DNA from: Daejeonella sp.
Lineage (GTDB): Bacteria; Bacteroidota; Bacteroidia; Sphingobacteriales; Sphingobacteriaceae
DNA: 64,000 nt
Assembly: GCF_017495225.1 (NCBI RefSeq)
Contig: NZ_JAFEIG010000002.1
Coordinates: 62,001 to 126,000 of the forward strand
Direction of reading: 5' to 3'
The notes beneath the pieces were generated by a model. That model was not told where the DNA came from, did not search any database, and worked only from the letters and a program-made list of their open reading frames with translations. The position numbers and the translations under genes were made by a program. Below are positions 3,535 through 34,881 of this stretch, one piece after another; the first letter of the stretch is position 1, and each line of letters starts with the position of its first letter.

Positions 3535-5208
3535 ATGCCACTAAATAGAGTTTGGAATTTTTTGCTTTTGATGCTATTCGCTTCTTTGGAGGTATTTAGT
3601 CAGACATTACCTGTTGGCACTCCCGTATTGGAGGATGCCTACCGTAGATCACAATTATTGGGTCAAAGCGATTCACTTAGCTCATTTACTATCCGTCCTA
3701 TTTCTAATGATGGAAATCAATTTATGGAGACTAAAGCTTCAGTTGATAGTGTAAAAAAGGTTTTAGATCTTTTGTATATCAGTAATAAGTATCAATTCCA
3801 TGGAGGCAAAGGTGTTATTCGTTTGCTTCCTATAACTTATCAGCGTCAGTATAATTCGCTACTTCCTTATGGTTGGAATGATGGAGCCATGATTCCATCA
3901 AAGGGAATTCAAACGCATTTAAGTACGGGTGTTTATGCTCAATATGGTCCATTGAGTATTCAACTTAAACCAGAGTATGTCAATGCTGAAAATTTGGAAT
4001 ATGATGGTTTTGCAGCAGAGCAATTTGATATAGTTTGGGCAAATTATTATGATAAATATTATAATGTTTCTGAGATTACTGATCGTTTTAACGATGAGGT
4101 TTATAATAAGTTGAATTGGGGTCAGTCAAGTATTCGCTTAACATTTGATCCTGTTTCTATTGGTTTATCTAATGAGAATTTGTGGTGGGGACCAGGGCAT
4201 AGGAATTCCTTAATTATGACGAATAATGCACCGGGATTTAAGCATATAACATTAAATACCTCTCGTCCTGTTCAAACCAAAATTGGTTCATTTGAGGCGC
4301 AAATTATTGCAGGTCGGCTAGAAAATTCGGGTGTTTTACCTCCGGAAGTTAATCGAGTTTATGAGCAACAGGCGCTATATATTCCGAAGCGCGATGATTG
4401 GCGTTACCTTTCGGGATTGGTTTTTACTTTCAATCCGAAATGGACTCCGGGACTATTTATTGGAGCTAGCCGAGTTTCGCAGATGTATAATCAGGATTCG
4501 GGTAAGAGTCCCGCAGATTTTTTACCACTCCTTCAGCCTTTTGAAAGTAAATTGGCAGCAGAAGCCAGAGACCGCTATTCTACGCTCTTTTTTAGATGGG
4601 TATTAAAGGAGGCACATGCTGAGATTTATGGCGAGTATGGCCATCAGGGTAAAAAGTCTTTTGGAGATTTCTTGAAGGAGCCTGATAGAAATGCAGCCTA
4701 TATGTGGGGCGTAAGGAAATTATTCCCTTGGAGCAGAAGACGTGCTGAATTTTTGCAAGTGTTTTTAGAGTTCACAGAATTACAACAAGCTTATGTACCT
4801 GTTAAGGGTGGATGGTACACTAGCACTAATATCCGACAAGGATATACGCATAATGGGCAGGTGCTAGGTGCTGGAATTGGTCCCGGTAGTAATTTGCAAA
4901 CCCTTAATATTAGCTGGGTGAAGGGCCTAAAGCGTATTGGTGTTCAAGGAGAACGCTATCTCCACAACAACGATTTTTATTATCAGATGTTTATCAATCC
5001 GCCGGATTATAGAAAGCATTATGTAGATATGAGTGCTTCTGCATTTCTAGATTGGGACTTTAAAAACTTTATTCTTAGTGCAAAAGGGACTGTGGTACGT
5101 TCATTAAACTATCAATATGTTTTATATAATAGACCAACGGCATATTTTGTAACTGGCTGGGATCGAATTAATTATCAAGCGAGTTTTGGTTTAACCTATC
5201 GCTTTTAA
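3535..5208 (+). CDS. Wzi-like capsule assembly outer-membrane protein, paralog 2
   Basis: Outer-membrane barrel of about 557 residues with a signal peptide ending LEVFSQ and a terminal GLTYRF. It shares WNDGAMIPSKG, YGPLSIQLKPEY and SNENLWWGPG with the paralog at 1249-2808. The ORF track starts at a TTG (3517) inside the preceding lipoprotein gene. ATG 3535 gives a normal signal peptide beginning MPLNRVWNF and sits 4 bp after the upstream stop, so I prefer it. The 3' end overlaps the opposite-strand flippase gene by 41 bp (5168-5208), so the last strand of the barrel and the flippase tail are encoded on both strands of the same DNA. It has a longer middle region than paralog 1. Confidence 0.85.
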   Translation: MPLNRVWNFLLLMLFASLEVFSQTLPVGTPVLEDAYRRSQLLGQSDSLSSFTIRPISNDGNQFMETKASVDSVKKVLDLLYISNKYQFHGGKGVIRLLPITYQRQYNSLLPYGWNDGAMIPSKGIQTHLSTGVYAQYGPLSIQLKPEYVNAENLEYDGFAAEQFDIVWANYYDKYYNVSEITDRFNDEVYNKLNWGQSSIRLTFDPVSIGLSNENLWWGPGHRNSLIMTNNAPGFKHITLNTSRPVQTKIGSFEAQIIAGRLENSGVLPPEVNRVYEQQALYIPKRDDWRYLSGLVFTFNPKWTPGLFIGASRVSQMYNQDSGKSPADFLPLLQPFESKLAAEARDRYSTLFFRWVLKEAHAEIYGEYGHQGKKSFGDFLKEPDRNAAYMWGVRKLFPWSRRRAEFLQVFLEFTELQQAYVPVKGGWYTSTNIRQGYTHNGQVLGAGIGPGSNLQTLNISWVKGLKRIGVQGERYLHNNDFYYQMFINPPDYRKHYVDMSASAFLDWDFKNFILSAKGTVVRSLNYQYVLYNRPTAYFVTGWDRINYQASFGLTYRF

Positions 5209-29195: not shown

Positions 29196-29332
29196 ACTTA
29201 TTTGTCAAACATTTTCTTTTTTTGACTAAGAAAGATCAATGAAAATCAATAAGCTTTAGTAATACTATTGTAATATATCAATAATTCTTAAAATATAAAA
29301 TGAGGGTTGAATATATTTTGATTTTCCTGTTT

Positions 29333-29352
29333 GGACAGGTCGCGACCTGTCC
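29333..29352. repeat. Palindromic repeat, copy a
   Basis: GGACAGGTCGCGACCTGTCC is a perfect 20-bp palindrome. It is one of six family members between 29.3 and 34.9 kb. Confidence 0.9.
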
Positions 29353-29379
29353 TCAAAGACACGTATGATATATATTAAA

Positions 29380-29399
29380 GGACAGATCTCGACCTGTCC
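29380..29399. repeat. Palindromic repeat, copy b (diverged)
   Basis: GGACAGATCTCGACCTGTCC differs from the perfect copy at two bases, both in the left arm, and is followed by CTAC as in other copies. It lies 27 bp after copy a. Confidence 0.85.
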
Positions 29400-29622
29400 C
29401 TACCTACGAATAATGCTTAAACATTAAGAAATTAAGATTATTAAGGAAGAAGCCCCTAAATAATCCTAATTTCAATCATCATAATTTTATCTAATAGGTT
29501 AAAGACTCAGCATTTTATTTCCTTCTTAATTTTTCTTAATTTCTTAATGTTTTTTAATTTTTAACATTGAATTTAAGGATAGCTTGCGAATTTCTATTAA
29601 TCTATTTCATTGGTATCAAAGC

Positions 29623-29642
29623 GGACAGGTCGCGACCTGTCC
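29623..29642. repeat. Palindromic repeat, copy c
   Basis: Perfect GGACAGGTCGCGACCTGTCC followed by CTACG. No gene overlaps it. Confidence 0.9.
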
Positions 29643-29754
29643 CTACGAAAAATTAAGAATTAATGTAAAACTATGTACTAACTACTATGTATTAACTACT
29701 ACCTACTAAGTACTAATTTCCCATATTCAATAGCGAAAACTGATTCCAATTTCT

Positions 29755-32154: not shown

Positions 32155-32853
32155 TCATTCCGCATAAGCAATTGTACAGATACTAATTTTTACTCCTTCA
32201 ATTTCCTGTAGTAAAAGACTACAAGCCTCTAAAGTTGCCCCAGTTGTCATTACATCATCAATGAGCATGATATGCTTGTTTATCAATTCTGATTTTTCTT
32301 TGACATCAAAGGCGCTGACTAAATTTTCATATCGCGCATAGCGTGATTTCTTGGTTTGAGTTTCTGTATTTTCAAGCCTCACCAAATTTTTGGTGTTGAT
32401 AGGGATATTCAGGATCGCTGAAAGTCCCTTAGCAATACATTCACTCTGATTATAACCTCTTTTTTTAAACTTTGCAGGATGCAGTGGAATAGGCATAATT
32501 AAGTCTGATTTTTTGAAAATATCTGACCTTTTTAGCTCATAGGCATAGAGTTCACCGAGGCGGATGCCGGTCTCCGGACTTTTCCTATACTTCAGTTTAT
32601 GCATCATGTTTTGTATTCTGCTGCCCTTGCGGAAATACAAGAAAGCAATGGTCTGCACAAAAGGGAATCTGCCCCATAATTGCCTGGCCATCTTGTTGTT
32701 AGGGTCTTCGTGAAAGTTTGTTTGTGGGAGATGATAGACACAGTTGGTGCATATTATACGCTCATTTTTGAATAAACTTTTGCCACAAGCAGCACAAAGT
32801 TCAGGAAAGAACAGAGCTAATAAATCTCCTAAATAGCCTAAATTTTTTTTCAT
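32155..32853 (-). CDS. comF: ComF family amidophosphoribosyltransferase-like protein
   Basis: 232 residues. A four-cysteine zinc ribbon (CAACGKSLF and CTNC, residues 18-39) precedes a phosphoribosyltransferase domain containing MPIPLHPAKFKKRGYNQS and the PRPP-binding motif IMLIDDVMTTGATLEAC near residue 195. ComF helps DNA import in naturally competent bacteria, but its exact role in Bacteroidota is not clear. It stands alone between two repeat-rich gaps, convergent with glyA. Confidence 0.92.
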   Translation of the reverse strand: MKKNLGYLGDLLALFFPELCAACGKSLFKNERIICTNCVYHLPQTNFHEDPNNKMARQLWGRFPFVQTIAFLYFRKGSRIQNMMHKLKYRKSPETGIRLGELYAYELKRSDIFKKSDLIMPIPLHPAKFKKRGYNQSECIAKGLSAILNIPINTKNLVRLENTETQTKKSRYARYENLVSAFDVKEKSELINKHIMLIDDVMTTGATLEACSLLLQEIEGVKISICTIAYAE

Positions 32854-32938
32854 GATTTAATTTAGGATTTGAGAATGGGATTGAACTCTAGTGTGTCGAC
32901 TTATTTAGTAAACGGTAGGTTTTGCCGCGATTTAACCG

Positions 32939-33114
32939 GGTACGGTGACAATATCGACCAGAGGAGCTCTCTGATGATTGATAGAATTCATCAAATAGGA
33001 AGGTAGGGACAGGTCGCGACCTGTCCTCTAACTCCATCAAAAAACCATCACCATTTTTATCTTTATGAACCTTAATTTCTTAATGTTTTTAATCTGAACC
33101 ATTAAGGGATTAAG
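32939..33114 (+). repeat. Long direct repeat A, copy 1
   Basis: About 176 bp nearly identical to 33606-33782, running from GGTACGGTGACAA through ATGATTGATAGAATTCAT, palindrome copy d, and CTAACTCCATCAAAAAACC to ATTAAGGGATTA. Differences are scattered substitutions plus one indel, concentrated in the AT-rich 3' part. Spacing between copies is about 668 bp. Confidence 0.92.
33007..33026. repeat. Palindromic repeat, copy d
   Basis: Perfect GGACAGGTCGCGACCTGTCC inside direct repeat A1, preceded by GTAG. Confidence 0.9.
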
Positions 33115-33170
33115 AAGAATTAAGAAATAGATTAATCACAATTATTTCACAGATTTTTTCGCGTCTCAGC

Positions 33171-33254
33171 GTCATTGCGAGGGTTAATTAATGTTATTAA
33201 AATCAATATAAATGACGTTAAATTGCAATGTACTAAATTTTCAACTGATTGATT
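33171..33254 (+). repeat. Direct repeat B, copy 1
   Basis: Shares GGGTTAATTAATGTTATT and the following AAAATCAATATAAATGACGT exactly with 33420-33504, with a diverged middle and a common end TTTCAACTGATTGATT. It lies immediately left of the multi-hairpin element. Confidence 0.88.
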
Positions 33255-33263
33255 TTATTTATT

Positions 33264-33389
33264 GCAATGGATTGAAATCCGTTGCTACAAGATGGGTCGT
33301 CCCGATGGGACTGGTAAATAGTTCAATACTGGTAAATACATAAAAGAGCCAAGGCTCGACCCATATTTTAAGGCAGGAATTTATTCCTG
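33264..33389. repeat. Multi-hairpin (cloverleaf-like) element
   Basis: In order: GCAATGGATT/AATCCGTTGC (33264-33285, one wobble); a closing stem ATGGGTCG (33292-33299) with CGACCCAT (33357-33364); inside it GTCCC/GGGAC (33299-33311) and GAGCC/GGCTC (33346-33357); then CAGGAAT/ATTCCTG (33374-33389). Two exact copies of ACTGGTAAATA (33310-33320, 33328-33338) sit between the inner hairpins. No protein is encoded. It could be a non-autonomous mobile element, a structured RNA or both; nothing here decides. Confidence 0.7.
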
Positions 33390-33419
33390 TTCTGTACCCA
33401 TGTGAATAGTTAATGGTTC

Positions 33420-33504
33420 GTCATTGAAAGGGTTAATTAATGTTATTAAAATCAATATAAATGACGTAAAACTAGAACTCGACATAAATTTCAACTGATT
33501 GATT
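33420..33504 (+). repeat. Direct repeat B, copy 2
   Basis: Second copy of the 33171-33254 repeat, directly right of the multi-hairpin element. The shared 5' part is exact over about 38 bp and both copies end TTTCAACTGATTGATT. Confidence 0.88.
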
Positions 33505-33605
33505 ATTAATGAAGTATAAAAAATGTCAATTGTAGAACATCCCTGTGAGATCCTCACTGCGTAAATCTCCTTAAATCTGTAGGAGAAAAAATGGAGCAAT
33601 TGGCT

Positions 33606-33782
33606 GGTACGGTGACAACACCGACCAGAGGAGCTCTCTGATGATTGATAGAATTCATGAAATAGGAAGGTAGGGACAGGTCGCGACCTGTCCTCTAACT
33701 CCATCAAAAAACCATCACCATTTTTATCTTGATGTGCCTTAATTTCTTAATATTTTTTAAAATGTACCATTAAGGGATTAAA
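33606..33782 (+). repeat. Long direct repeat A, copy 2
   Basis: Second copy of repeat A, ending 14 bp before the rlmN stop codon. It carries palindrome copy e. Confidence 0.92.
33674..33693. repeat. Palindromic repeat, copy e
   Basis: Perfect GGACAGGTCGCGACCTGTCC inside direct repeat A2. Confidence 0.9.
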
Positions 33783-33796
33783 AAAATTATTAAATC

Positions 33797-34840
33797 TTAA
33801 CTCTTCACAGCCAACTGCCCACAGGCAGCGTCAATGTCTTTCCCTCGGCTTCTTCTAATATTGGTATTGATGCCGTTTTTACGGAGATGTGCCGCAAATG
33901 CTTCAATTTTATCAATCCCCGCATTTTCATAATCGGCAAAGCTGATTGGGTTGTACTCAATAATATTTACCTTACAAGGGATATGTCGGCAGAATTTTAC
34001 AAGCTCCTCGGCATCGCTAATATTATCGTTGAAATCGTTAAAAACGATGTACTCGTAGGTAACGGGATTTTTAGTCTTGGAATAAAAATATTTCAAAGCC
34101 TCAGCCAATGCTTTTAAAGAGTTTTGCTCGTTAATAGGCATAATGGTATTCCGCTTTTCATCATTTGCAGCATGGAGAGAAAGGGCTAAATTAAATCGGA
34201 CCTCATCATCCCCCAGTTTTTTAATCATTTTGGCAATGCCTGCAGTTGATACCGTAATGCGCTTGGCAGCCATGTTTAAGCCGTCTTTTGCGGTAATTCG
34301 CTCCACCGACTTTAATACATTAGCATAGTTCAAAAGAGGCTCACCCATACCCATGTACACAATATTGCTCAATGGAATTCGATAGTTCTCCTTCGCTTGC
34401 TTATCTATTAAAACTACTTGATCGTATATCTCATCGGCATTTAAATTACGCTTACGATCCATGTATCCCGTAGCACAAAATTTGCATGTCAGACTACAGC
34501 CAACTTGTGAACTAACACATGCCGTCATGCGGTCGGTTGCCGGAATTAAAACGCCCTCAATAATATTATTATCATAAAGCATGAAGGTGCTTTTTATGGT
34601 TTTATCGGCGCTAAATTGCGATTGATGTACCTTTACATTATTAATTGTAAAGCTTTCCTTCAATTTCTCTCTCAATGCTTTGGAAAGATTACTCATCTCC
34701 TCAAAATCAGTACAGGATTTCTCCCATAGCCACTCATATACCTGCTTAGCCCTAAATGCAGGCTCTGCAATGGAGATGAAGTGCTCTTTTAGCTTATCAG
34801 GGGATAAACTGCGAATGTCTATTTTTTGAGAATCTTGCAT
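33797..34840 (-). CDS. rlmN: 23S rRNA (adenine-2503-C2)-methyltransferase, radical SAM
   Basis: 347 residues from the preferred ATG at 34840 (MQDSQKIDIRSL). The ORF track uses 34870, but a TATTTTTG box (34847-34854, minus strand) lies between the two starts and family members begin near the DIRSLSPDKLKEHF region. The radical-SAM cluster motif is CSLTCKFC near residue 110 and the catalytic second cysteine is in AACGQL at the C-terminus. YMGMGEPLLNYANV is also typical. It methylates A2503 of 23S rRNA and A37 of some tRNAs. It is flanked on both sides by repeat-rich gaps. Confidence 0.95.
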   Translation of the reverse strand: MQDSQKIDIRSLSPDKLKEHFISIAEPAFRAKQVYEWLWEKSCTDFEEMSNLSKALREKLKESFTINNVKVHQSQFSADKTIKSTFMLYDNNIIEGVLIPATDRMTACVSSQVGCSLTCKFCATGYMDRKRNLNADEIYDQVVLIDKQAKENYRIPLSNIVYMGMGEPLLNYANVLKSVERITAKDGLNMAAKRITVSTAGIAKMIKKLGDDEVRFNLALSLHAANDEKRNTIMPINEQNSLKALAEALKYFYSKTKNPVTYEYIVFNDFNDNISDAEELVKFCRHIPCKVNIIEYNPISFADYENAGIDKIEAFAAHLRKNGINTNIRRSRGKDIDAACGQLAVKS

Positions 34841-34846
34841 TATTTG

Positions 34847-34854
34847 CAAAAATA
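34847..34854 (-). promoter_or_regulatory. -7 box deciding the rlmN start
   Basis: TATTTTTG on the minus strand ends 6 nt before ATG 34840 and lies inside the longer ORF, arguing for the shorter start. No -33 TTTG is visible. Confidence 0.5.
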
Positions 34855-34881
34855 CGAATTTTTTGTTCATTCACCGCGTAG

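Follow-up and report, generated by a model that had tools for sequence, protein, structure and literature searches.

The locus examined herein is the gap between a comF-like phosphoribosyltransferase gene and rlmN, the gene of a radical-SAM rRNA methyltransferase, in a 64-kb window (the whole stretch of Daejeonella sp. DNA that was analyzed) of a 3.1-Mb assembly of 36 contigs that is 98.6% complete. Both genes are adjacent across the genus, and the gap between them measures 943 bp in Daejeonella sp. Synteny was readable in 14 genus relatives, where the same gap is shorter and holds unrelated filler; in the two closest relatives (G134 and G098), it is ~140 bp long. Only the ~75 bp next to comF resemble the gaps of relatives by eye (e.g., ...TTTAGTAAACGGTAGG; L085–L090). 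The remainder is an insert containing all repeats, with a length of ~740 to 860 bp according to the placement of its junctions. In two of the 14 relatives (L093 and L094), the gap has independently received inserts that are longer but unrelated; the one of L094 comprises a long fragment with recurring GCAAAGT-type repeats. The rlmN–comF gap may be an insertion-tolerant site. In agreement with the preliminary description of this DNA, the gap encodes no plausible protein, the only longer ORF (33381–33707, TTG start) having no Pfam match above the cut-off. A plasmid or phage origin of the insert was rejected since no similar DNA was found among 72,556 plasmids and 50,697 phages. The gap is made up of stacked repeats of known kinds, among them several sorts of short mobile palindromes (Table 1).

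Table 1. Features of the comF–rlmN gap and its two neighboring genes (positions are those of the window)
Feature	Position	Strand	Basis
comF-like phosphoribosyltransferase gene, left neighbor	32155–32853	-	Pfam Pribosyltran and DZR_2
Upstream region of comF, kept from the ancestral gap	32854–32929	.	By-eye comparison with intergenic regions L085–L090
Lineage-specific insert with all repeats	32930–33796	.	Gap comparison with 14 genus relatives
Repeat A1, mosaic of three dispersed repeats (TACGGTGACAA..., GTAG-REP, CTTAATTTCTTAATG...)	32939–33114	+	Self-comparison and genome search
GTAG-tagged REP palindrome GTAG-GGACAGGTCGCGACCTGTCC inside A1	33003–33026	+	36 exact genome copies
Composite dispersed unit B1–core–B2, ~362 bp	33170–33531	+	Copies elsewhere in the genome
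B46 motif in B1 (GTCATT...AATGAC, 46 bp)	33171–33216	+	Family-wide motif search
Two-hairpin module U: 9-bp hairpin 33265–33284, linker CTACAAGATGGGTC 33285–33298, 5-bp hairpin 33299–33311	33265–33311	+	
5' arm of the closing stem, pairing with 33357–33364	33292–33299	+	Folding and direct reading
Second module U', inverted: hairpin 33346–33357, linker 33358–33371, hairpin 33372–33391	33346–33391	-	
B46 motif in B2	33420–33465	+	Self-comparison
Repeat A2, with GTAG-REP at 33670–33693	33606–33782	+	Self-comparison and genome search
rlmN radical-SAM rRNA methyltransferase gene, right neighbor	33797–34870	-	Pfam RlmN_N and Radical_SAM

The outer repeats A1 and A2 align gap-free at 95% identity over 152 nt (32939–33090 versus 33606–33757), and their similarity extends to 33116/33784 with 87% identity over the final 31 nt, which bears out the direct repeats described earlier. 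Full-length A occurs twice genome-wide, both times in the comF–rlmN gap, while its component repeats are dispersed. Among these, the palindrome GTAG-GGACAGGTCGCGACCTGTCC is found in 36 exact copies, as opposed to none for a reversed-pattern control. When up to three mismatches are allowed, 72 matches are obtained, some of which represent one palindrome read on both strands (control, 0). The GTAG tag is constant on one foot of the palindrome and variable on the other. With its GTAG foot and many dispersed copies, the palindrome fits the GTAG-tagged REP superfamily (PMC3733652). A cognate RAYT flanked by GTAG-GGACAGGTCGCGACCTGTCC was not detected in the own genome, of which the sole Y1 gene found has other flanks; the RAYT L210 of a relative is flanked by GTAG-GGATAACCCTCGGGTTATCC. 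A second GTAG-REP cluster with CTTAATTTCTTAATG repeats is located at 29315–29663 of the window, between a dxs-like gene and scpA. Elsewhere in the window, two 254-nt stretches (1734–1987 and 4083–4336), 2.3 kb apart, are 70% identical; this pair is perhaps paralogous coding sequence.

The inner repeats B1 and B2 are likewise direct, as had been reported (33171–33254 and 33420–33504). They share 94% identity over 53 nt (33170–33222 versus 33419–33471) as well as a second block of 19 nt (33236–33254/33486–33504), and the entire B is 86% identical. Together with the core in between, they form one composite unit that is present in three full copies in the genome, the other two being located at G000:C12:6422–6781 (96% identity) and C21:92946–93318 (92%). 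In addition, B1 and the core without B2 are found at C24:68063–68298, and the core alone, without intact B46, at C27:9931–10065, adding up to five sites of the core. At the C21 copy, the neighboring gene is not adjacent in relatives, and the empty-site comparison is that of the comF–rlmN gap. The check for further copies proposed in the preliminary description was positive for the core and for B. Its nested layout A1–B1–element–B2–A2 stands, but not the view of A and B as nested flanks of equal rank, as B1–core–B2 is one dispersed unit and full A is local.

The core contains four hairpins (33265–33284 with one T·G wobble, 33299–33311, 33346–33357, and 33372–33391) and an 8-bp closing stem formed by ATGGGTCG (33292–33299) and CGACCCAT (33357–33364). 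Folded as DNA, it reaches z = −2.8 with one of 200 shuffles being equally stable, and folded as RNA z = −3.3 with none of 200. The closing stem with internal and flanking hairpins proposed earlier is hence recovered, its positions having been read directly. One module consists of a first hairpin with a 9-bp stem and a 2-nt loop, joined through the 14-nt linker CTACAAnATnnnyC to a second one with a 5-bp stem and a 3-nt loop. The apparent cloverleaf of the core is an inverted dimer of this single two-hairpin module, and the closing stem forms between the feet of its two inverted copies, which are complementary.

A strict module pattern gave no match genome-wide; a looser pattern, used in its place, matched in Flavobacterium, Arcicella, and Mucilaginibacter. 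Y1 (PF01797) genes were gathered from the module-bearing genomes as well as from 101 family genomes, and two kinds dominate. Genes of ~150 aa with a HuH motif and Y...Q..HH (n = 61) fit TnpA-Y1 subclass 1.2 of PMC6006769, and genes of ~180 aa with NH[VIL]H, WQ, and Y(I/L)HxNP fit subclass 2.6 therein. The module of the core is found in the flanks of seven of the 61 subclass-1.2 genes. These seven constitute exactly one clade with a support of 100/99, in which every member has the module; this distribution requires one change on the tree, and none of 500 label shuffles was as clustered. The clade comes from Flavobacterium, [Flexibacter], Arcicella, Mucilaginibacter, and two family members. All seven proteins contain the HuH motif and Y...Q..HH, six being 153 aa long and L268 being read as 131 aa. 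The three that were tested match the NCBIfam IS200/IS605 transposase, and one clade protein matches ISHp608 TnpA (PDB). Core and clade-flanking arrays have the same layout of 9-bp/2-nt hairpin, 14-nt linker, and 5-bp/3-nt hairpin, and the transposase of L231, from Flavobacterium tegetincola, is surrounded by the CAACGGATT and the AACAGnnGGAATAAATTCC module types together, which are the two types found in the core. A structural module detector yielded 16 matches near 40 loci versus 0.45 expected after shuffling. The PF01797 search detected no subclass-1.2 gene in the own genome, where a 36-contig assembly of 98.6% completeness could miss one.

Across Bacteroidota, 42 distinct modules were compared. 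Twelve of the 14 module pairs show two-sided changes, and the covariation score is 0.517, compared with 0.150 ± 0.013 after shuffling and no more than 0.10 with slid partners, in line with the selection on structure that had been suspected from the gap alone. Because these modules were picked with a pairing filter, their percentage of paired bases is biased upward, and the bare linker serves as the unselected check. Without any filter, CTACAAnAT occurs near the clade genes at 41 distinct sites in 20.9 kb, 39 of which have at least six of the nine stem pairs, versus eight sites in 156 kb around the other genes, none of these sites having a stem. Among the changed cells, 105 are two-sided and only two are one-sided. 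RNA helices usually evolve through G-U intermediates. Since the two-sided changes of the module occur almost without such intermediates, the sequence comparison points to DNA palindromes rather than RNA hairpins.

Hairpins are not confined to the flanks of this clade. The 61 subclass-1.2 genes have 4.93 perfect hairpins per locus within a 600-bp flank, versus 0.99 after shuffling and 1.06 around rlmN of relatives. Recurring flanking stems are present at 44 of the 61 genes, versus 0.3% of shuffles and one of 18 control loci of relatives. Below 40% protein identity, 0 to 4% of gene pairs share hairpin stems, and above 60% identity, 59% of them do. Hairpin type correlates with protein similarity (Mantel r = 0.41; 0 of 2000 permutations), a relationship that is in part due to gene and flank having descended together and is not by itself proof of recognition. 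According to PMC6006769, subclass 1.2 is generally devoid of typical terminal IS200 structures, and none are given for the subclass.

Taken together, the gap is probably a stack of non-autonomous REP-like elements, the core of which is an inverted dimer of a module belonging to one subclass-1.2 HuH (Y1) clade. The core copies are best read as non-autonomous, REP-like arrays that have been orphaned, their subclass-1.2 transposase being absent from the assembly. This explanation is based on the module at all sampled clade members, the covarying hairpin, the five gene-less sites, and the absence of the insert from the gap of relatives. The successive insertion of non-autonomous elements, one of two ideas put forward initially, is thereby upheld: relatives lack the insert in this gap, its parts are dispersed, and the core type flanks transposases. 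IS608 TnpA and TnpA-REP recognize folded single-stranded DNA. By analogy, the transposase would have recognized the module as folded single-stranded DNA, namely a hairpin together with the unpaired linker or foot, and would have copied or moved the arrays, mobilizing them in trans. The array, joined to two B46 repeats, may then have spread as the ~362-bp unit in the Daejeonella lineage. Subsequently, the transposase gene would have been lost, unless the arrays arrived without it. The A copies could have been added by the separate GTAG-REP system and by local duplication. Against the orphan-array reading, the only Y1 gene of the genome is a RAYT of subclass-2.6 type with other flanking hairpins, and a cognate enzyme was not seen in the genome that has the copies. 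Moreover, the dispersed unit has B46 ends, whereas the transposase loci elsewhere are without B46, and the exact module is rare, being found in only two of 201 family genomes.

The strongest rival, although unlikely, holds that the 362-bp unit shares its means of movement with B46, the core being only a passenger between two B46 copies. Both B46 ends are present in all three full copies, and the borders of the unit coincide with B46. B46 (GTCATNNNGAGGGNTAATTNATNNTATNAAAATCAATATNANTGAC) is furthermore an abundant dispersed repeat of related genomes: among 301 genomes of the family, 28 contain it, at up to 63 copies each (control, 0). Across loci L045–L128, it appears as a strongly conserved 46-bp intergenic repeat with GTCAT/TGAC ends, reaching the 63 copies in one related genus. 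Structurally, a terminal stem of 5 to 7 bp encloses an AT-rich interior, and CGTCATT is found at both copies of the window. The CGTC foot is therefore present, but the 8- to 9-bp stem, the 4- to 5-nt loop, and the CCA tail of CGTC-REPs are not. IS110-family transposase genes adjoin B46 in two related genomes and are 77% identical between them; such genes were seen at L071 and L102 and at the contig ends L046, L053, L068, and L072. No transposase is consistently linked to B46, however, IS110 standing beside only two of the 51 loci scanned. IS110 was rejected as its cognate enzyme. Its proximity was read as a possible relationship of element and target and suggests that bridge-RNA-type elements insert at B46. 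Further points against a B46-driven spread are the C27 core without intact B46, the C24 copy without B2, and B46 copies in relatives without the core.

Mobilization of the core in trans by the resident RAYT is improbable. This gene, L036 (G000:C35:95053), is a REP-associated tyrosine transposase (NCBIfam NF047646) of subclass-2.6 type and the one Y1 gene that the PF01797 search found in the genome. It is flanked by inverted GTCCGTAGAGTTAAGCGCAGCGTCTCTACGGA/GAGTCTTCAGACTC units, and a similar arrangement surrounds the genes of many relatives. The proposal draws on its being the sole Y1 gene found and on the inverted two-hairpin units around it, of which the layout is similar to that of the core. 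However, these hairpins and linkers are unlike the core in sequence and length, as are in sequence the inverted two-hairpin units that flank many 2.6-type genes. The core module was not found near the scanned 2.6-type genes, the flanks of which are other hairpin types, and a link of the core to the resident enzyme was rejected on these grounds.

The second initial idea, a locus of structured RNA between recombination repeats, is now very hard to maintain. A regulatory or riboswitch-like RNA selected for its folding would agree with an RNA fold that beats its shuffles and with covarying base pairs. Against it, Rfam gave no match at the gathering score in the 64-kb window, the one-sided (G-U) changes are far outnumbered by two-sided ones, and the same modules flank a DNA transposase. 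The copies also lie at unrelated loci and are absent from the same gap in relatives, i.e., there is no conserved gene context. The RNA reading was therefore rejected on the missing Rfam match and the wobble-free covariation that favors DNA. Equally implausible is a neutral local duplication of random DNA devoid of mobility, to which the restriction of full-length A1/A2 to this gap would correspond. Neither the core nor the REP inside A can have arisen in this way, given three loci with B1–core–B2, five with the core, 36 exact GTAG-REP copies, and a module that is phylum-wide; the duplication of A itself may have.

In a broader sense, subclass-1.2 HuH transposases may well form a second REP-like system in Bacteroidota, in which a clade-specific hairpin-array code co-evolves with the enzyme and disperses as gene-less arrays; the core would be an orphan outpost thereof. 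In the open-access literature, to which the search was confined, the link of the two-hairpin array to the subclass-1.2 clade is not described. Few non-coding repeats are as common in bacteria as REP sequences with their domesticated HuH transposases. The array provides a candidate partner for a transposase subclass that has been without one, and part of the palindromic "junk" between Bacteroidota genes may be explained by it. For the question of how enzyme and hairpin stay matched, the 61 genes with enzyme-tracking hairpins represent a natural experiment on single-strand hairpin recognition.

Compared with known systems, the gap resembles REP/REPIN sequences and their RAYTs (TnpA-REP) in that its palindromes are short and intergenic, occur as inverted pairs, and are linked to a HuH Y1 transposase; the GTAG foot of the palindrome in A is that of the GTAG superfamily (PMC3733652). 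The core module differs in that two hairpins are joined by a fixed 14-nt linker. The transposases of its clade belong to subclass 1.2 with Y...Q..HH, as opposed to Y...NP in class-2 TnpA-REP. TnpA-Y1 subclass 1.2 (PMC6006769) corresponds in its HuH motif DHVH, WQ, Y...Q..HH, size of ~150 aa, and occurrence in Bacteroidota; no terminal structures are given there, whereas recurring hairpin arrays are present at 44 of the 61 genes of the present sample. In TnpA-REP subclass 2.6/RAYT group 5 (atypical structures), inverted two-hairpin units flank the gene, including the RAYT of the own genome, but hairpins, linkers, and protein subclass are others than in the core system. The start of B46, (C)GTCATTGCGAG, is like that of many CGTC-tagged REPs (PMC3733652), for which no dedicated transposase is known; these have an 8- to 9-bp stem, a 4- to 5-nt loop, and a CCA tail, whereas B46 spans 46 bp with a conserved AT-rich interior. 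Finally, although the gap element has no internal gene and several hairpins per side, it shares with IS200/IS605 (IS608 and ISDra2) the transposase homology and the subterminal hairpins that are read as single strands.
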